From Alphaproteobacteria bacterium (GTDB taxonomy: Bacteria; Pseudomonadota; Alphaproteobacteria; Ferrovibrionales; Ferrovibrionaceae): 64,000 bases of DNA. The stretch is taken from positions 310,001-374,000 of the forward strand of contig JAFKFH010000003.1 in the NCBI GenBank assembly GCA_017307375.1, given 5' to 3'. The notes beneath the pieces were generated by a model. It was not told the DNA's origin, did no database searches, and was given only the letters and a program-made list of their open reading frames with translations. The position numbers and the translations under genes were made by a program. Below are positions 39,749-57,526 of the stretch, piece after piece. Numbering within the stretch: the stretch's first letter is position 1; each line of letters begins with the position of its first letter.

Positions 39749-40662
39749 TTACCGCGACAGGCGCCGACAGAGATCGTCGAGCTGGTCGAAGTCCTTGAAC
39801 GAAATGCGCAATTCACCGGCTTCGCCGCGGCCGTCGAGCGCGATGGCGACCTTGAGCCCCAACTGGTCGGACAGCGAGCTTTCCAGCGCCAGCGTATCGG
39901 CATCCTTGTCGGGCCGGGGCGCCACGGCGGTGCCGGCGGCGCCGGGCTTGGACTTGCCGCCTGCCTTCACCGATTTCTCGCCGGCGACCAGTTCCTCCGC
40001 CTGGCGGACGTTCAGCCCCTCGGCGACGATGCGGCGGGCCAGCGTCTCCGGCTGCTCGGCCGCGACCAGCGTGCGGGCATGGCCGGCCGTCAGCTTGCCG
40101 TCGGCGATCATCGCGCGCACGGTTTCGGGCAGGCCGAGCAGACGCAGCGTATTGGCGATATGGCTGCGGCTCTTGCCCAGCGCCTGGCCGAGCTGTTCCT
40201 GGGTGTAGTTGAATTCGCGCTGCAGGCGGCGATAGGCCAGGGCTTCTTCGACCGCGTTCAGATCCTGGCGCTGGATGTTCTCCAGGATCGCGATTTCCAG
40301 CGCCTCGGCGTCGCTGAAATCGCGGACGACCACCGGTACCTGATGCAGCTGCGCCCGCTGGGCGGCGCGCCAGCGGCGTTCGCCGGCGACGATCTCGTAG
40401 CGCTGCGCTTCCTTCGAGCGGCGCACGACGATCGGCTGGATGATCCCCTTCTCGCGGATCGAATCGGCAAGCTGGGCCAGCGCGTCTTCGTCGAATCGGG
40501 TACGTGGCTGGTAGCGATTCGGCACCAGATGCTCGATCGGCAACGACAATTGCCGTGGCGCCGCCCGGTCCGCCTCGCCCGCGGTCGCTGGCGGTGTCGC
40601 CGGATCTTCGCCCAGCAACGCGGCAAGACCACGCCCCAGGCCCTTGCGCTTGCCCTCCTCGC

Positions 40663-40666
<4 letters not shown>
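39749..40666 (-). CDS. parB: Chromosome partitioning protein ParB
   Basis: 305 residues. N-terminal KGLGRGLAALLGED, box I/II with NRYQPRTRFDE and the CTPase motif GERRWRAA, followed by the HTH for parS (YTQEQLGQALGKSRSHIANTLRLL) and a C-terminal dimerisation domain. A CTP-dependent clamp loaded at parS; two perfect parS sites lie 1.4-3.4 kb upstream of the gene start. Overlaps parA by 4 bases. Confidence 0.97.
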
Positions 40667-41466
<800 letters not shown>

Positions 41467-41491: not shown

Positions 41492-42109
41492 CTAGGGGTT
41501 GGGCTGCGGCTCGGGAATTCCGGTGAACTTCAGGATGACCCCGCCGGCATCGCTGCGGCTCTGCACGCGTTGCGGCGCCATATTCCAGTTTTTACTCGCG
41601 GCGGTCAATTCCGCCTCGGCGTCGACGCCCTTGGGAAACAGCATGACGGTGCCGCTGTGGCAGAAAGGACGCGCATAGCCGATCAGCTTGTCGAGGGCGG
41701 CCAGCGCCCGGGCGCTGACGACATCGGCCGGAAACGGCTTCAACGCCTCGATCCGGCTACGATGGAAGCTGACCTTGGTGCCGGTCGCCCGCGCCGCCTC
41801 GGACAGGAAGGCCATTTTGCGGCCGTCGGCTTCGACCAGATGCATCTCGGGCGCGCCCAGGATGGCCAGGACCAGCCCGGGAAACCCGGCCCCTGAGCCC
41901 AGGTCCACCCAAACCCTGGCCTCCGTCGGCGCCAACGCATAGAGCTGAGCGGAATCGAGGAAATGGCGCTGCCACAGATCCGGCAGGGTCGACGGACCGA
42001 CCAGGTTGATCGCCTTCTGCCATTTTTCGAGAATCGCGGCGTAGGCCTGGAGGCGGTCGAGTGTTTCACGTGAAACACCGGTTGCCGACGCGAATTCGGC
42101 CGGCGTCAT
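41492..42109 (-). CDS. rsmG: 16S rRNA (guanine-N7)-methyltransferase RsmG
   Basis: 205 residues. Methylates G527 of 16S rRNA. Motif I VWVDLGSGAGFPGLVLA; VSARALAALDKLI. The N-terminal segment GVSRETLDRL is encoded by a perfect parS site (42062-42077), a placement seen in many bacteria. The ATG shares a base with the mnmG stop (TGATG). Confidence 0.97.
   Translation of the reverse strand: MTPAEFASATGVSRETLDRLQAYAAILEKWQKAINLVGPSTLPDLWQRHFLDSAQLYALAPTEARVWVDLGSGAGFPGLVLAILGAPEMHLVEADGRKMAFLSEAARATGTKVSFHRSRIEALKPFPADVVSARALAALDKLIGYARPFCHSGTVMLFPKGVDAEAELTAASKNWNMAPQRVQSRSDAGGVILKFTGIPEPQPNP
42062..42077. promoter_or_regulatory. parS centromere site 1, inside rsmG
   Basis: TGTTTCACGTGAAACA, an exact match to the universal 16-bp parS palindrome, extended to 18 bp (GTG..CAC). 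In rsmG reading frame it encodes VSRET. About 14 kb from oriC. Confidence 0.97.
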
Positions 42110-44003: not shown

Positions 44004-44019
44004 TGTTTCACGTGAAACA
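44004..44019. promoter_or_regulatory. parS centromere site 2, between mnmE and mnmG
   Basis: A second exact TGTTTCACGTGAAACA, intergenic, 36 bases before the mnmG ATG and 17 bases from the mnmE stop. About 12 kb from oriC. Confidence 0.97.
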
Positions 44020-45359: not shown

Positions 45360-45710
45360 TCAGACCGCCGGCTCGACCTGATCGGGCATCAGCATCAGCC
45401 GCTCGACCCGGCCGCCGGCAACCAGGTGGGTCTGCAGGATCTCGTCGATGTCCGCCGTGGTCTTCGGCGAATACCAGACGCCCTCCGGATAGATCACCAT
45501 GGTCGGTCCGAGTTCGCAGCGATCGAGACAACCGGCATTGTTGATGCGCACCCGCGCCAGGCCGAATTCCTTGGCCCGCGCCTTCATGTAGTTGCGCAGC
45601 TGCTCGGCCCCCTTCGACTTGCAGCAGCCGCGCTTGTGGCCGGCCGGACGCTCGTTGGTGCAGACGAAGACGTGATGATCGTAGAACGGGGCCGGATCCT
45701 GCACGCTCAT
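45360..45710 (-). CDS. (2Fe-2S) thioredoxin-like ferredoxin
   Basis: 116 residues. Cys pattern [18 protein letters not shown]...[13 protein letters not shown] places four or five ligands typical of the thioredoxin-fold [2Fe-2S] ferredoxins (Shethna-protein class). Cytosolic. Electron donor with unknown partner. Starts within the end of the DUF6489 gene (4-base overlap). Confidence 0.92.
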
Positions 45711-45955
45711 TGCCCGCCCTTGCCCGCCGCGGCGGTGAACTGGTTCCAGAACATCTTCTGCAATTGCTCGAAGCCGGCCATGCCGGCGGGCATCCAGGTC
45801 TTGATCAGCGTCTCGGGATCGGTCGCCTGCAGCGCCTGCAGCATGCGGGCCTCGATCTCGGCCATCACCTTTTCCTGCATCGGCTGCACGTCGGGCAGAC
45901 CGAAGAACACCCTTGCCTCGAGCGGCGTACAGTCAATATCGACCTTGACCTTCAT
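45707..45955 (-). CDS. DUF6489 protein
   Basis: 82 residues from the ATG at 45955. Begins [27 protein letters not shown], the recognisable start of an alphaproteobacterial small family of unknown function; the second half is a helical stretch ending in Ala/Gly. Upstream and overlapping the ferredoxin gene. Confidence 0.85.
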
Positions 45956-46063
45956 CGGCCTCTCGTCCCCGTCGCTGATCCCGCCCATAATCGGGCCCGG
46001 ATCATTCTCTATCATCTAGTGCGTCCGGCGCCTATCGCCAGCCCGACAACCGCAAGGCAAACC

Positions 46064-48106
46064 ATGCTCGATTTCGGCCGCAACAATCTCGATCGCGAAA
46101 CCAGCCCCTATCTGCTGCAGCATGCCGGCAACCCGGTGCACTGGCAGGGCTGGAGCGCCGAGGCGCTGGCCCATGCCAAGGCGGCCGACAAGCCGATCCT
46201 GCTGTCGGTCGGCTATGCCGCCTGCCACTGGTGCCATGTGATGGCGCATGAAAGCTTCGAGGCGCCCGAAACGGCGGCGGTGATGAACGACCTGTTCGTC
46301 AACATCAAGGTCGACCGGGAGGAGCGGCCCGACATCGACATGATCTACCAGCAGGCCCTGTCGCTGCTGGGCCAGCAGGGCGGCTGGCCGCTGACGATGT
46401 TCCTGACGCCGGCCGGCGAACCGTTCTGGGGTGGCACCTATTTTCCGCCGGAACCCCGCTGGGGCCGACCCGGCTTCGCCGACCTGCTGCGCCGCGTCGC
46501 CGAGGTCTTCCGCACCGAGCGGGCGACGACCGTCGAAAAGAACCGGCTGGCGCTGGGCGACGCGCTGGCCCGGCTGGGCCGGCCGCCGGAAGACGCGCCC
46601 GAGCCGGCCCTGGGTCCCCAGTTGCTCGATCAGGTCGCCGAACGCTTCGCCCGCGATGTCGATCCGGTCAATGGCGGGTTCGGCACGGCGCCGAAATTTC
46701 CCAACATCGCCAATCTCACCCTGCTGTGGCGCGCCTCGCTGCGGGCGGGGCGGCAGGATTTCGCCCGCGCGGTGCGCACCACCCTCGACCGGATGTGCCA
46801 GGGCGGCATCTACGATCACCTCGGTGGCGGGTTCAGCCGCTATTCGACCGACGAACGCTGGCTCGCCCCACATTTCGAGAAGATGCTCTACGACAACGCC
46901 GAACTCGTCGGCATCCTGGCCGAAGTCTGGGCCAAGACCGGCACCCGCCTCTACGAACAGCGCCTGCGCGAGACGGTTGCCTGGCTGCGCCGCGAGATGA
47001 TCGCCGAGGGCGGCGGTTTCGCCGCCACCGTCGATGCCGATTCGGAAGGCGAGGAAGGCCGTTTCTACGTCTGGACCGAAGCCGAGATCGACGAAATCCT
47101 CGGCGAAGAGGCCGGGCTGTTCAAGGCCACCTACGACGTCTCGCTGCGCGGCAACTGGGAAGGCAAGACCATCCTGAACCGGCTGGACCAGGCGACCCCT
47201 TTGTCCGAGGACGACGAAGCCCGCCTCCAACGCTGCCGGATGACCCTGCTTGCCCACCGCGACAAACGGGTCCGGCCGGGCTGGGACGACAAGGTGCTGG
47301 CAGACTGGAACGGCCTGATGATCGCAAGCCTCGCCCGCGCCGCCACGCTGTTCGCCGAGCCGACCTGGCTCGCCACCGCGATCGCGGCCTTCGATTTCGT
47401 GCGCGACCACATGCAGCCGGACGGCCGGCTGCGCCACAGCTTCCGCCAGGGTCAGGCCCGGCATGCCGCGCTGCTCGACGACTATGCCAACATGGCGCGC
47501 GCCGCCCTCGAGCTGCATGAGATCTCCGGCGAGATCGGCTATCGCCGCCAGGCCATGGCGTGGGTCGACATCCTCGACCGCCATTACTGGGATTCGGACC
47601 ATGGCGGTTATTTCCTGACGCCGGACGACGCCGAGGCGCTGATCACGCGGTCGCGCAGCGTCTACGACAACCCGAATCCATCCGGCAACGGCACGATGGT
47701 CCAGGTGCTGTCGCGGCTGTGGCGCCTGACCGGCGACGATCGCTACCGGGCACGGGCAGAAGCCATCATCGCCGCGTTCGCGACCGAGGTGTCAAGGAAT
47801 CTGTTCCCACTGGCGACGTTCCTGAACAATGTCGAGTTCCATCATGCGGCCGACGAGATCGCCATCGTCGGCCAGCGCACCGATCCGGCAACCGCCCGCC
47901 TGCTCGCCGTCGCCCTGAAGGACCCCTGGGCCAACCGCGTGATCAGCGTCGTCCCACCCGATGCGACCCTGCCGCCGACCCACCCGGCCTTCGGCAAGGG
48001 CCAGGCTGACGGGCGGCCGACGGCCTATCTGTGCCGCAACCAGGCCTGCTCGCTGCCGCTGACCGAACCGGCCGATCTGGCCCGCGCGATCCTCGGGGGC
48101 GAATGA
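46064..48106 (+). CDS. DUF255 thioredoxin-domain protein (YyaL/SSP411 family)
   Basis: 680 residues. N-terminal thioredoxin-like domain with [21 protein letters not shown] and the active-site-like [29 protein letters not shown], then an (alpha/alpha)6 barrel like cellobiose epimerases ([28 protein letters not shown]...). Function unclear despite wide conservation. Its stop overlaps the start of the next gene (ATGATG). Confidence 0.94.
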
Positions 48107-48561
48107 TGCCGCAGCTTTCCTTCCTGTCGCCGCTCGGCGACATCACCGTCAGCGAAGAGGACGGCGTCATCGTCTCGCTCGACTGGGGGCGCGGCCCGCG
48201 CGAGTTCCAGGAACAGACCCCGCTGCTGCTCGAAGCCCGCGACCAGATCCACGGCTATTTCGATGGCCGGGTCCGGCGTTTCGCCCTGCCGCTGGCGCCG
48301 TTCGGCACCGAGTACGAGCGAGCGATCTGGACCATCCTGCAGGCAATACCCTTCGGCCACACCCGCAGCTACGGCGAGGTCGCCAAGGAAACCGGGTCGG
48401 TGGCCCGCGCCGTCGGCCGGGCCTGCGGCGCCAACCCGATCCCGATCATCATTCCCTGCCACCGGGTGCTTGCCGCCGGCGGCAAGCTCGGCGGTTTCTC
48501 CGGCTCCGGCGGCGTCGAATCGAAGGTCGCGCTGTTGCGGCTGGAAGGCGCCTTGCTTTAG
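48103..48561 (+). CDS. ogt: Methylated-DNA--protein-cysteine methyltransferase
   Basis: 152 residues. Suicide repair of O6-methylguanine: active site PCHRV (Cys), helix [18 protein letters not shown] and [24 protein letters not shown]. Short N-terminal domain, no Ada-type regulator part. Overlaps the DUF255 gene and is likely cotranscribed. Confidence 0.96.
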
Positions 48562-48619
48562 CCTCGGGCCCCGACATATCTCCGCCTTTCCAGAACATAA
48601 TCACAGAGGAAACACGACA

Positions 48620-49321
48620 ATGGCCTCGACCGAACTGTCGCTCACCGCTTTCGACGGCGGCGAATTCACCGGCTATCTGGCCCTGCCCCCCGCGGGCAAG
48701 GGTCCCGGCATCGTCGTGCTGCAGGAAATCTTCGGCGTGAACGCGGTGATGCGCGAAGTCTGCGACGAGCTGGCGGCACAGGGATACGTGGCGCTCTGCC
48801 CCGACCTGTTCTGGCGCCAGGAACCGGGCATCCAGATCACCGACAAGACCGACGCGGAGTGGAAGCGCGCCTTCGAGCTGTTCCAGGGCTTCGACATCAA
48901 TACCGGCATGATGGACGTCTCCCATGCCATCGACGCGCTGCGCCGGCATGACGCCTGCACCGGCAAGGTCGGCACCGTCGGCTATTGCCTGGGCGGGCGG
49001 CTTGCCTATCTCGCCGCGACCCGTACCACCACCGATGCGTCGGTCGGCTATTACGGCGTCTACATCCAGGACCATCTCGACGAGGCGCGCAACATCAAGA
49101 ACCCGCTGATGCTGCACGTCGCCGAGGCCGACGAATTCGTGCCGCCGGAGGCGCAGGCCAAGATCAAGGAAGGCCTGGCCGGCAATCCGCTGGTCACGGT
49201 GCACAGCTATGCCGGTCGCGACCACGCTTTTGCCCGCGTCGGCGGCAAGCATTACGATGCTGCGGCGGCCAAGCTGGCCAACGACCGTACCGCGGCATTC
49301 TTCAAGCAGCATCTGGGCTGA
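48620..49321 (+). CDS. Dienelactone hydrolase family protein
   Basis: 233 residues. Alpha/beta hydrolase with Cys nucleophile in VGYCLGGRLAY, the Glu of VLQEIFGVN, Asp in AEADEFVPPEA and His in GRDHAFAR: the full Cys-His-Asp triad of dienelactone hydrolases. ATG after AGAGGAA. Probably a lactone or ester hydrolase; no catechol pathway is nearby. A quinone oxidoreductase follows 8 bases on. Confidence 0.93.
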   Translation: MASTELSLTAFDGGEFTGYLALPPAGKGPGIVVLQEIFGVNAVMREVCDELAAQGYVALCPDLFWRQEPGIQITDKTDAEWKRAFELFQGFDINTGMMDVSHAIDALRRHDACTGKVGTVGYCLGGRLAYLAATRTTTDASVGYYGVYIQDHLDEARNIKNPLMLHVAEADEFVPPEAQAKIKEGLAGNPLVTVHSYAGRDHAFARVGGKHYDAAAAKLANDRTAAFFKQHLG

Positions 49322-49328
49322 TCGCGCC

Positions 49329-50306
49329 ATGACACGCGCCATCCGCTTCAACAAGCCCGGCGGGGTCGAAGTCCTCTCCTGGGACGAGGTCGAGGTCGGC
49401 AACCCCGGCCCCGGCCAGGTCCGGCTGCGCCACACCGCGATCGGGCTGAACTTCATCGACATCTACTATCGCTCGGGCCTCTACCCGATCGCCACCTGGC
49501 CCTCGGGCCTCGGCATGGAGGCCGCCGGGGTGGTCGAACAGGTCGGCGACGACGTCACCGACCTGCGGCCCGGCGATCGCGTGGCCTATGCCGCCGGTCC
49601 GCTCGGCGCCTATTCGGAAGCCCGGCTGATGGCCGCCGACAAGCTGGTAAAGCTGCCCGATGCAATCGACGACCGCACGGCCGCGGCGATGATGCTGAAG
49701 GGCATGACCGCCGAATACCTGCTGCGCCGGACCTATCCGGTGAAGGCCGGCGACACGATCCTGGTCCACGCCGCCGCCGGCGGCGTCGGCCTGATCCTGT
49801 GCCAGTGGGCCAAGCATCTCGGTGCCACCGTCATCGGCACCGTCGGCGACGGCGCCAAGGCCGCGCTGGCCCGGGCCAATGGCTGCGACCATCCGATCAT
49901 CTACACCTCGGAGGATTTTCCGGCCAAGGTCCGCGAACTGACCGGCGGGGTCGGGGTGCCGGTGGTCTACGATTCGATCGGCAAGGATACCTATGCCGGT
50001 TCGCTCGACTGCCTGCGGCCGCGCGGCATGATGGTGTCGTTCGGCAATGCCTCCGGCCCGACCGGGCCGATCGACCCGCTGCAGCTCTCTGCCAAGGGAT
50101 CGCTCTATCTCACCCGCCCGACACTGATGAGCTACACCGCCACCCGCGCCGACCTGGAGGAAAGCGCCAACGCGCTGTTCGCCGTGGTCGCCTCGGGCGC
50201 GGTCAAGCTGTCGGTCAATCAGACCTACCCGTTGGCGGAAGCCGGCCGGGCCCAGACCGACCTGGCCGGCCGCAAGACCACCGGGTCGACCGTCCTGCTG
50301 CCCTGA
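49329..50306 (+). CDS. Quinone oxidoreductase (zinc-free MDR family)
   Basis: 325 residues. NADPH:quinone reductase, QorA-like: GHADR-type catalytic residues in LNFIDIYYRSGLYP, GMEAAGVVEQVG, NADPH loop VHAAAGGVGLILCQWAKHLGA and the usual IGKDTYAGSLDCLRPRGMMVSFG. No structural zinc Cys. 8 bases behind the dienelactone hydrolase gene, likely same transcript. Confidence 0.95.
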   Translation: MTRAIRFNKPGGVEVLSWDEVEVGNPGPGQVRLRHTAIGLNFIDIYYRSGLYPIATWPSGLGMEAAGVVEQVGDDVTDLRPGDRVAYAAGPLGAYSEARLMAADKLVKLPDAIDDRTAAAMMLKGMTAEYLLRRTYPVKAGDTILVHAAAGGVGLILCQWAKHLGATVIGTVGDGAKAALARANGCDHPIIYTSEDFPAKVRELTGGVGVPVVYDSIGKDTYAGSLDCLRPRGMMVSFGNASGPTGPIDPLQLSAKGSLYLTRPTLMSYTATRADLEESANALFAVVASGAVKLSVNQTYPLAEAGRAQTDLAGRKTTGSTVLLP

Positions 50307-50343
50307 CGTCCGCGCGTGGAGGTCGTCGTGATGGCGGCGACCT

Positions 50344-51204
50344 CTATCGCTGCAGCTGCCTGAGCGAATCCCGAAGCGCGTCACCCATGGCAACCCCGGG
50401 CAACGTCCTCGCCCGGCCCCCGGCCACCAGCGCGATCGTCGAATGGCCGAGATCAGGCAAGCCTTCGCGCCGCCCCAGCACCCTCAGACCCGGTCTGAGG
50501 CTTTCATAGCCGAGCACGGCGACACCCAGGCCCGCCTCGACCGCGGCCAGCAGGCCGAGCAGGCTGCCCGAGGTGAAGACCGGCACCACCTGCCGCCCTG
50601 CCCGCTGCAAGGCCGAGACCGCCAGTGCCCGCATGCCGCAGGGCGGCGCCAGCGCGACGAGTTTCGCCGGCCCCCCGGGATCGGGCCGAAACCCCTCGCC
50701 GGCTACCCAGAGCAGCGGTTCATGCAGCAGGACCTCGCCCGGCGCATCGTTCGACCCCTGCCGCACCACCGCGAGATCCAGCCCGCCATCGTCGAGACGC
50801 CGGCGGAGGGTGGCGGAAATTCCGGCCTCGACCGTCAGTGCCACATTGGGATGCATGGCGGCAAACCGCGCCAGGATGGCCGGCAGATGGCGCGGCACGA
50901 AGTATTCGGTCACGCCCAGGCGCAACGCACCCGTCAGCGGCGGCCGGCTGACCACCGCCACCGCCTCGTCGTTCAGCTCGAGCAGCCGGCGGGCATAGCC
51001 GAGCAGTGCCTCGCCGTCGCGGGTCAGGCTCAGCCGGCGTGGCGTCCGCTCGAACAGCCGCTTGCCCAGCCGTTCCTCCAATTTGCGGATCTGAATCGAG
51101 ATCGCCGATTGCGACCGCGCCACGCGCTCGCCACCGGCGGTGAAGCCGCCGGCATCAGCGACGGCCACAAAACTGCGCAGGATGTCGGTATCGAGGTTCA
51201 GCAT
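50344..51204 (-). CDS. LysR-family transcriptional regulator
   Basis: 286 residues from the ATG at 51204. LysR HTH LRSFVAVADAGGFTAGGERVARSQSAISIQIRKLEERLGKRLFER, then the two-lobed effector domain. Divergent from the tautomerase gene 100 bases away, with a dyad ACAAT-N7-ATTGT between them, so the tautomerase is the probable target. Confidence 0.93.
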   Translation of the reverse strand: MLNLDTDILRSFVAVADAGGFTAGGERVARSQSAISIQIRKLEERLGKRLFERTPRRLSLTRDGEALLGYARRLLELNDEAVAVVSRPPLTGALRLGVTEYFVPRHLPAILARFAAMHPNVALTVEAGISATLRRRLDDGGLDLAVVRQGSNDAPGEVLLHEPLLWVAGEGFRPDPGGPAKLVALAPPCGMRALAVSALQRAGRQVVPVFTSGSLLGLLAAVEAGLGVAVLGYESLRPGLRVLGRREGLPDLGHSTIALVAGGRARTLPGVAMGDALRDSLRQLQR

Positions 51205-51220
51205 CGATCCATGATAAAAC

Positions 51221-51237
51221 ACAATCATTGAAATTGT
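51221..51237. promoter_or_regulatory. Candidate LysR operator
   Basis: Inverted repeat ACAAT-CATTGAA-ATTGT in an unusually AT-rich stretch between the LysR gene and the divergent tautomerase gene. Size and placement fit a LysR binding site. Confidence 0.5.
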
Positions 51238-51304
51238 TTCTATGCGATTCCGTGATGATCGGCGCGGCCGGTATCCTGGCGTCATCCAAGCAGGAGACAC
51301 CGCC

Positions 51305-51703
51305 ATGCCGATCCTCAACGTCACCCTTTCCAGCGCCCCCGATGCCGCCCTGTCGGCCGCGGTCGCGGGGGAGCTGTCGCGGCTGACCGCCGCCTTGCTC
51401 GGCAAGAATCCGCAAGTCACGGCGGTCGCCGTCGGCCATGTCGATCCGGCGCACTGGTTCGTCGCCGGCCAGCGCCTCAGCGAAATCGGCAAGGCGAGCT
51501 TCTTCCTCGACACCCGCATCACCGACGGAACCAATACCAAGGACGAGAAAGCCGCCTATGTCGCCGCGGTGTTCGAGGCCATGGCCCGGTTGCTCGGGCC
51601 GATCCACGAAGAATCCTACGTCCATGTCCACGACGTGCGCGGCGACGCCTACGGCTATGGCGGCAAGACCCAGGACTACCGCTACATCGCGGCGAAGGTC
51701 TGA
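51305..51703 (+). CDS. Tautomerase-superfamily protein (4-OT-like)
   Basis: 132 residues. Begins MPILNVTLS, giving the catalytic Pro1 after Met removal. Longer than classical 4-oxalocrotonate tautomerase (62) and in the size of MIF-like or fused forms; the second half has TDGTNTKDEKAAYVAAVFEAMARLLG and a YVHVHDVRGDAYGYGG tail. Possibly an isomerase or dehalogenase. Controlled by the divergent LysR gene, by inference. Confidence 0.9.
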   Translation: MPILNVTLSSAPDAALSAAVAGELSRLTAALLGKNPQVTAVAVGHVDPAHWFVAGQRLSEIGKASFFLDTRITDGTNTKDEKAAYVAAVFEAMARLLGPIHEESYVHVHDVRGDAYGYGGKTQDYRYIAAKV

Positions 51704-55261: not shown

Positions 55262-56290
55262 TCAGGCCCGCCTAATGCGGTCGACCAGGGCCGCGACGTG
55301 GTCCGGCGGGGTTTCCGGCACGATGCCGTGGCCCAGGTTGAAGATGTAGCGATGCGGACCCAGGGTTGCGAGGCAGCGATCGATCTGGGCGGCCATCGCG
55401 TCGCCGCCGACGACCAGCAGCCGGGGATCGAGATTGCCCTGCAACGCCGCTTCGGGCGCCAGCGTCCTTGCCGCCCAGTCGAGCGGCACGCCGGTGTCGA
55501 GCGAGATGCCGGCCACGCCGGTGGCCGCGGCATAACCCTGGTAGCCGCCGCCGGCCGCGCGTGGAAAGCCGATCACCGGCACGGCCGGATGGCGCTGCTT
55601 CAGCGCCCCGACGATCCGTGCCACCGGGGCCACGCACCAGGCCTGGAAGGCGAAATCGGGCAGGCCACCGGCCCAGCTGTCGAACAGCTGGACGACTTCG
55701 GCCCCGGCCTCGATCTGCCTTGACAGATAATCGATCGTCGCCGCGGTCACGATGTCGATCAGCCGCGCGAAACCGGTGGGATCGCGATAGGCCCAGGCCT
55801 TGACGATTTCATGGTCGGTGCCGCCTCGCCCCTCGACCATGTAGGTCGCGACGGTCCAGGGGGCTCCGGCGAAACCGATCAGTGCGGTCTCGGCGGGCAG
55901 TTCGGCCCGCAGCCGGCGCACGGTCTCGTAGACCGGTGCCAGATGGGCATGGATGTCGCGCTGCCCGAGGCGGTCGAGGTCGGCCCCGTCGCGCACCGGC
56001 GCCAGTACCGGTCCCTCACCTTCCTTGAATGCCACTTGCTGGCCCAGCGCATCCGGCACCAGCAGGATGTCCGCGAACAGGATCGCGGCGTCGAAGCCGT
56101 AGCGCCGGATCGGCTGCAACGTCACCTCGACGGCATGGTCGGGGGTGTAGCACAGGTCGAGGAAGCCTTTCGCCTTGGCCCGGACCGCCCGGTATTCCGG
56201 CAGATAGCGGCCGGCCTGGCGCATCAGCCATACGGGCGGCGGCCAGACCGTTTCCCCGTTCAGGACGCGGGTGAGTTTTCTGGTGGTCAC
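55262..56290 (-). CDS. hemE: Uroporphyrinogen decarboxylase
   Basis: 342 residues from a GTG at 56290, chosen because GGAG lies 8 bases upstream and the length then fits the family; the frame stays open further upstream into the origin region. Motifs: PPVWLMRQAGRYLPEYR, ILFADILLVPDALG, GFAGAPWTVATYM, GFPRAAGGG. Its 5' side abuts oriC, as in Caulobacter. Confidence 0.96.
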   Translation of the reverse strand: MTTRKLTRVLNGETVWPPPVWLMRQAGRYLPEYRAVRAKAKGFLDLCYTPDHAVEVTLQPIRRYGFDAAILFADILLVPDALGQQVAFKEGEGPVLAPVRDGADLDRLGQRDIHAHLAPVYETVRRLRAELPAETALIGFAGAPWTVATYMVEGRGGTDHEIVKAWAYRDPTGFARLIDIVTAATIDYLSRQIEAGAEVVQLFDSWAGGLPDFAFQAWCVAPVARIVGALKQRHPAVPVIGFPRAAGGGYQGYAAATGVAGISLDTGVPLDWAARTLAPEAALQGNLDPRLLVVGGDAMAAQIDRCLATLGPHRYIFNLGHGIVPETPPDHVAALVDRIRRA

Positions 56291-56701
56291 CGTGGGAACT
56301 CCATGCTGGGGCCGCTTACCTAAACCATATGGGAGTCGAAGAGTAAGGGATTCCTGTAGTGGTGCTTGGGGGGTGGAATCCTGTGGATTAATGCCGCTCC
56401 CGATTTTGTCGACTCCCGACGGTTTTATCCCCGTTTTCCCGCCGTGGGAAAACCGTTGCGGATAAACCCGGCGACTCGACCGGTTTACGGTCGTGTGAAT
56501 CCTGTGGATGACGGGGATAGTCACCGAACCGACTTTTTCCACAGGATTCACAACCAGACGCGCGGACTATCCGCAAGGTGGCGACCGGTCGCACCGGCGA
56601 CGGCATGACGGGGGTGGAAAAACCGGGGCTTCCGGGCGACTCGGGGTTCATCCCCGTGTTTCCACCTTTTCCACAGGCCCGGGATTTGCTTTAAGCAGGG
56701 G
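56291..56701. other. Chromosomal replication origin (oriC)
   Basis: A 411-bp gene-free stretch between divergent hemE and ppsR, the known location of alphaproteobacterial origins. DnaA-box-like nonamers, given as read toward TTATCCACA: TAATCCACA (56390-56382), TCATCCACA (56511-56503), TTATCCGCA (56465-56457), TTTTCCACA (56535-56543), TTTTCCACA (56667-56675), TTATCCCCG (56425-56433), CTATCCGCA (56567-56575). Eight GANTC sites lie in it (first bases at 56333, 56349, 56376, 56411, 56473, 56497, 56545, 56638). Genes on both sides are transcribed away from it. Confidence 0.88.
56494..56552. repeat. Perfect 15-bp inverted repeat inside oriC
   Basis: TGTGAATCCTGTGGA (56494-56508) and its exact complement TCCACAGGATTCACA (56538-56552), 29 bp apart; each arm includes a DnaA-like box and a GANTC site. 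The 13-base core GAATCCTGTGGAT also occurs as a direct copy at 56376-56388. Confidence 0.95.
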
Positions 56702-57526
56702 ATGACCGCCTTCCACCTCCATCTGGTGTCGGATTCCACCGGCGAGACGCTGAAGGCCGTGGCGCGCGCCGCCATCGTCCAGTTCGCCAATGCCGCCGCC
56801 GAGCAGCGCGAGCACAGCTGGGCGCTGGTCCGCACCCCCGGGGTGATGGAACGGGTGATCCAGGCGATCGCCGCGACCCGCGGCATCGTCCTCTACACCG
56901 TCGTCGATCCCGAACTGCGCGAGATGCTGGTCGACAGCTGCCGCAAGATCGGCGTGCCCTGCGTCGCCGTGCTCGACCCGGTGATCCAGGCCCTGTCGCT
57001 GTTCCTGGGCCAGCAGGCCCAGGGCCTGCCGGGCCGCCAGCACGAGCTCGACGCCGAGTATTTCAAGCGCATCGACGCGATGAACTACACGCTGGCCCAC
57101 GATGACGGCCAGGTGCCGGAAGACCTCGATACCGCCGATCTGATCCTGCTGGGCGTCTCGCGCACCTCCAAGACGCCGACCTCGATCTATCTGGCCAATC
57201 GCGGGGTCAAGGTCGTCAACATCCCGGTCATCCCGGGCGTCGAACTGCCGCCCCAGCTCTTCGAGATCCGCAAGCCGCTGGTCGTCGGCCTGACCACCAA
57301 TCCCGAGCGGCTGATCCAGATCCGGATGAACCGGCTGGCCTCGCTGAACCAGAATTCCGAGACGTCCTATGTCGACCCCGATGCGGTGCGCGAGGAGATC
57401 ATCAAGGCGCGGCGTCTCTACAACGACAACGGCTGGCACGTGATCGACGTCTCGCGCCGCTCGATCGAAGAGACGGCCGCGGCCATTCTCAACCTGCTGT
57501 CCCAGCGCCGGACCAACGACCGATGA
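56702..57526 (+). CDS. ppsR: Pyruvate, phosphate dikinase / PEP synthase regulatory protein (DUF299)
   Basis: 274 residues. Bifunctional kinase/pyrophosphorylase that inactivates and reactivates PPDK or PEP synthetase. P-loop GVSRTSKTPTSIYLA (about 151-165), start HLVSDSTGETL, and VGLTTNPERL. Historically the first gene to the right of alphaproteobacterial oriC. Overlaps maf by 4 bases. Confidence 0.95.
   Translation: MTAFHLHLVSDSTGETLKAVARAAIVQFANAAAEQREHSWALVRTPGVMERVIQAIAATRGIVLYTVVDPELREMLVDSCRKIGVPCVAVLDPVIQALSLFLGQQAQGLPGRQHELDAEYFKRIDAMNYTLAHDDGQVPEDLDTADLILLGVSRTSKTPTSIYLANRGVKVVNIPVIPGVELPPQLFEIRKPLVVGLTTNPERLIQIRMNRLASLNQNSETSYVDPDAVREEIIKARRLYNDNGWHVIDVSRRSIEETAAAILNLLSQRRTNDR

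Follow-up and report, generated by a model that had tools for sequence, protein, structure and literature searches.

Described Origins and the Present Locus

The chromosomal origin of Caulobacter crescentus (Cori) is flanked by hemE and a DUF299 gene and contains G-boxes and W-boxes. In E. coli, GATC sites and SeqA delay re-initiation at oriC. The basal unwinding system (BUS) of B. subtilis consists of a DnaA box pair, a spacer and DnaA-trios, and has been proposed to be widespread (PMC8287927).

The window analyzed here (the whole stretch of DNA under study, 64 kb) contains a 411-bp gap between hemE (minus strand) and ppsR (plus strand), which an earlier note had proposed as the chromosomal oriC. 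Synteny, a cluster of DnaA boxes, a directional architecture seen across 139 gaps and a skew reversal in a complete genome of the same family (G003) together led to the same assignment, and we are highly confident that the gap is a DnaA-dependent chromosomal origin. Counting against the assignment are the shallow skew of the window's own contig, the lack of a BUS match and the low AT content of the gap's unwinding stretch. For an uncharacterised lineage of Alphaproteobacteria, the assignment locates the start of replication.

The gap belongs to the known Caulobacter Cori/BUS-type origins. It shares with Cori the gene neighbours, the restriction to moderate and weak, off-consensus DnaA boxes, and the presence of several GANTC sites, as reported for Cori (PMC3973325, PMC4468827, PMC4285127). 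It differs in that the boxes here replace the G of position 2 by A or C, or carry T at position 3. The exact G-box TGATCCACA was absent from the gap, where only the variants TAATCCACA and TCATCCACA were present. The full CtrA site TTAAN7TTAA was likewise not found in the gap, which holds two TTAA half sites, and the IHF consensus WATCAANNNNTTR had no full match there.

As in the BUS, a box pair faces a TAG-type trio in the correct orientation, with the most AT-rich stretch alongside; however, one clear trio core was observed here, compared with the at least three contiguous trios of the BUS rule. The resemblance to E. coli oriC is that methyltransferase sites are dense both at the origin and near dnaA, and that some adjoin DnaA boxes. 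In contrast to E. coli, the site is GANTC, that of CcrM, and its enrichment is not tied to the presence of CcrM.

Position and Gene Neighbourhood

The limits proposed for the origin proved exact, with the likely hemE start and the ppsR start at the nucleotides directly adjoining it. The gap and the surrounding features are as follows:

56291–56701, no strand: predicted chromosomal oriC, the hemE–ppsR intergenic region; its box cluster is the sole one in 774 kb, and the divergent gap is conserved in relatives
55262–56290, minus strand: hemE, uroporphyrinogen decarboxylase (TIGR01464, E=5.7e-122), likely GTG start at 56290
56702–57526, plus strand: ppsR, PPDK/PEP synthase regulator, DUF299 (NF003742, E=5.4e-102), ATG at 56702
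39749–40666, minus strand: parB (TIGR00180, E=1.4e-57)
40663–41466, minus strand: parA, a ParA/MinD-family ATPase adjoining parB (NF041546, E=1.2e-31, under the cut-off of that model)
42065–42074, no strand: parS-like TTCACGTGAA, sequence match
44007–44016, no strand: parS-like TTCACGTGAA, sequence match

A longer hemE reading frame of 429 aa, beginning at 56551, was rejected because its N-terminus is spurious; the hemE family match starts only at residue 93 of this frame, in agreement with the GTG start.

To the left of the gap, hemE is followed in order by a DUF2889 gene, hemH, a hemJ-like UPF0093 gene and rho. Beyond rho come mostly plus-strand metabolic genes, then mnmE, mnmG, rsmG, parA and parB. 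To the right lie ppsR, maf, coaE and a DnaQ-type exonuclease gene; the frame between maf and coaE is presumably aroE-like, a call made from its sequence and established synteny. The divergent orientation claimed for both sides is true of the immediate neighbours and of the rho–hemE and ppsR–coaE groups, but the left arm as a whole is broken up by a mostly plus-strand block at about 45.7–51.7 kb. This block (45710–51703, between mnmE and rho) includes genes for a DUF255 thioredoxin-like protein and a zinc-type oxidoreductase, among others. Elsewhere in the window, an FMN riboswitch was identified at 1802–1960 on the minus strand (Rfam RF00050, 107 bits).

A parABS system had also been noted nearby, and ParA, ParB and the two parS-like sites were indeed located 12–17 kb to the left of the gap, the parS sites themselves being 12–14 kb away. 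A second cluster, with four parS-like TTCACGTGAA sites, was observed on another contig (C31:179064-181230, genome G000), adjoining a ParA homologue (L131:12101-13150, minus strand). It suggests a separate partitioned replicon, e.g., a megaplasmid or chromid; the ORFs tested included no named replication initiator.

DnaA Boxes

The 9-mer TTATCCACA was used as the DnaA-box reference, and boxes were counted at no more than two mismatches. Eight such 9-mers are present in the gap, five with one mismatch and three with two; elsewhere in the window, a 411-bp stretch holds three at most. A cluster of at least three boxes at no more than one mismatch, or at least five at no more than two, occurs in the gap alone within the 774 kb examined of the 879-kb contig. 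The boxes, together with a more degenerate one identified from the sequence and by comparison with relatives, are the following:

56372–56380, minus strand: degenerate trio-proximal box GATTCCACC, four mismatches, overlapping a GANTC site
56382–56390, minus strand: DnaA box TAATCCACA, one mismatch, unwinding-module box
56425–56433, plus strand: weak box TTATCCCCG, two mismatches
56457–56465, minus strand: DnaA box TTATCCGCA, one mismatch
56503–56511, minus strand: DnaA box TCATCCACA, one mismatch
56535–56543, plus strand: DnaA box TTTTCCACA, one mismatch
56567–56575, plus strand: weak box CTATCCGCA, two mismatches
56613–56621, minus strand: weak box TTTTCCACC, two mismatches
56667–56675, plus strand: DnaA box TTTTCCACA, one mismatch, ppsR-proximal

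The several box variants described in the earlier note were thus recovered, and their deviations are of the kinds it had named: position 2 is altered in TAATCCACA and TCATCCACA, while TTATCCCCG, TTATCCGCA and CTATCCGCA represent the CCCC/CGCA forms. In addition, both copies of TTTTCCACA depart from the reference at position 3. A graded-affinity set is plausible for this gap, judging from the box sequences. Graded boxes are the usual state in the class, and a perfect TTATCCACA was present in only 36 of 139 gaps.

Conserved Order of Origin Elements

Gaps of relatives were recovered with the ppsR protein as query. The divergent hemE/ppsR gap was obtained directly at 139 of 159 genome loci of the class (about 60 families, the window's own gap included). 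At the remaining 20 loci, hemE was not recovered beside ppsR, in some cases because the retrieved DNA ended early. About 109 loci, 80 of them named records (Microvirga, Methylobacterium and others), also had the divergent pair. Two related genomes (G026 and G138, loci L030 and L214) carry one in-frame TAG within the ppsR match; a pseudogene, a real stop or an effect at the edge of the alignment could each account for it.

Over 61 families, DnaA boxes ranked highest among enriched 9-mers. Expressed as family-equivalents, ATCCACAGG was observed 16.5 times versus 0.14 expected, TTATCCCCA 19.5 versus 0.39, and TTATCCACA 19.4 versus 0.43. In 108 of the 139 gaps, the most AT-rich 50 bp fell within the fifth nearest hemE. 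Within the first 220 bp, 43 gaps (25 families) carried GTAGTRG in this orientation, compared with two occurrences in the opposite orientation, and it was found once in the rest. Minus-strand boxes prevailed in the mid-left part and plus-strand boxes at the ppsR end.

The class-wide order accordingly runs from an AT-rich block through a TAG-type DnaA-trio (GTAGTRG) and then minus-strand boxes to plus-strand boxes at the end facing ppsR. The window follows the same order, with GTAGTGG at 56356, the box pair at 56372–56390, minus-strand boxes up to 56511, and, between 56535 and 56675, boxes mostly on the plus strand. The result is a directional origin map for the whole class that is open to direct testing.

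Two features of the unwinding region are involved:

56314–56363, no strand: candidate unwinding element, the most AT-rich 50 bp of the gap (54% AT), hemE-proximal
56356–56362, plus strand: GTAGTGG, DnaA-trio core

The value of 54% is the seventh lowest maximum among the 139 gaps. The BUS rule (a DnaA box, a spacer of no more than 16 bp and at least three contiguous trios) was satisfied in 77 of 139 gaps versus 26 in shuffles. The published BUS search returned no match in the sequence of this gap, even with a spacer of up to 25; the trio run here is degenerate, GTAGTGG being its sole clear core. The GC-rich unwinding stretch and the degenerate trio run are a real peculiarity of this member.

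From this arrangement, a working scheme can be proposed. ATP-DnaA would load on the moderate and weak boxes, comprising minus-strand boxes on the left and in the middle and plus-strand boxes at the ppsR end, with loading nucleated by the unwinding-module pair at 56372–56390. From this pair, a DnaA filament would grow over the GTAGTGG trio into the relatively AT-rich hemE-proximal stretch, whose melting would permit helicase loading. Two forks would then depart, the left one through hemE and the right one through ppsR, and ParA and ParB, acting at the parS sites, would pull the new origins apart.

GANTC Sites at the Origin

Eight GANTC (CcrM) sites are present in the gap, versus 1.6 expected from dinucleotide shuffles, and three of them abut DnaA boxes as TCCACAGGANTC, the highest count of any gap. 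The corresponding features are:

56333, 56349, 56376, 56411, 56473, 56497, 56545 and 56638 (span 56333–56642), no strand: the eight GANTC sites
56494–56552, no strand: perfect 15-bp inverted repeat, TGTGAATCCTGTGGA (56494–56508) and TCCACAGGATTCACA (56538–56552), each arm containing part of a DnaA box and a GANTC site

Two of the three TCCACAGGANTC copies lie in the inverted repeat. The gap is the densest GANTC spot in the 774 kb sampled, and the runner-up is located upstream of dnaA. This second cluster (L125:10150-10660, C16 at about 450.2–450.7 kb) precedes a small rhodanese-like gene and dnaA. In Caulobacter, control of the dnaA promoter by CcrM has been reported (PMC3973325). The genome of the window encodes a RAMA-domain CcrM (C1:74771-75883) and GcrA.

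Across the class, GANTC was the most enriched of eight equivalent palindromes in the gaps (58 families, family-level p=1.5e-4). It peaked at −30 to −10 and +10 to +30 relative to the trio start, and in CcrM-carrying genomes it was enriched about threefold in the DUE and in the trio/box segments. The enrichment was nonetheless nearly the same with a CcrM orthologue (1.55x) as without (1.57x), and no association with CcrM presence was detected among 62 family-level groups (52 with and 10 without CcrM, some of the latter represented by draft genomes; permutation p=0.46). Dependence of the enrichment on CcrM was therefore rejected, and the GANTC excess is not explained by CcrM, at the power afforded by 10 CcrM-negative families. 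In one family (f35: G051, G151, G220 and G279), all four sampled members were without a CcrM orthologue and had 4–6 GANTC sites in the gap, with about two expected. Such CcrM-independent enrichment near the trio separates two ideas that are usually merged, namely methylation control and sequence constraints that spell GANTC.

There is about an even chance that the GANTC sites are a by-product, in that GANTC arises incidentally within a degenerate, GATTCACA-like DnaA box and an AT-rich unwinding motif of the GAATCTTA type. Besides the independence from CcrM, this reading is favoured by the two peaks beside the trio, which coincide with the GAATCTTA-type motif and the degenerate box. However, an enrichment of about 1.8-fold remains in mid-gap, away from both elements.

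Timing by CcrM is an addition to the oriC identity and not an alternative to it. It would mean that GANTC sites at the unwinding-module box and the AT-rich element go from fully to half methylated when the origin fires and so delay re-initiation, similarly to GATC and SeqA. The density of sites, their contact with boxes, the CcrM and GcrA genes, the class-wide rank of GANTC and the cluster upstream of dnaA all point in this direction. Even so, we consider such timing unlikely, given the equal enrichment without CcrM, the strong enrichment in f35, and the finding that CcrM is not required for initiation control in Caulobacter (PMC3973325). A survey described origin site clusters for Dam and three other orphan methyltransferases, GANTC not being among them (PMC4752239).

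A broader proposal is that GANTC flanks the DnaA-trio class-wide, with sites in the melting stretch on one side and in the trio-proximal box on the other, and that the copies here of a DnaA box joined to GANTC act as an initiation switch sensitive to methylation, independent of but comparable to GATC/SeqA control. We regard it as quite doubtful. We know of no SeqA analogue that reads GANTC.

Nucleotide Skew and the dnaA Region

The genome of the window is a 41-contig draft, and skew was calculated from sampled stretches. On its own contig, the skew was very shallow, with a cumulative minimum at about 414–440 kb (keto) or 460–514 kb (GC), compared with the gap at 366 kb, that is, 50–150 kb to the right of it. 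An origin on this part of the contig agrees with these values, which do not pinpoint it; within the 64-kb window alone, no clear turning point was found at the gap. A skew minimum away from the gap, the counter-evidence named in the earlier note, does not settle the matter in this draft contig.

In G003, hemE/ppsR lies at 1.307 Mb and the opposite point at about 3.44 Mb. Samples between 0.02 and 1.27 Mb mostly had negative skew, those between 1.31 and 3.36 Mb mostly had positive skew, and the skew was again negative at 3.69 Mb. Its sign thus changes around hemE/ppsR and near the opposite point, as resolved by coarse 20-kb samples.

In many bacteria, the origin lies beside dnaA, and DnaA is an established regulator of promoters. 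Here, dnaA is located at C16:451170, 85 kb to the right of the gap. That the main origin adjoins dnaA and the hemE–ppsR boxes serve a DnaA-regulated divergent promoter is extremely improbable: although the shallow own-contig minimum is closer to dnaA, a dnaA-proximal origin was rejected because the fully sampled 20 kb around dnaA contain no box cluster (at least three at no more than one mismatch, or at least five at no more than two), while the conserved trio/box architecture, parABS and the G003 skew reversal are all located at hemE–ppsR.
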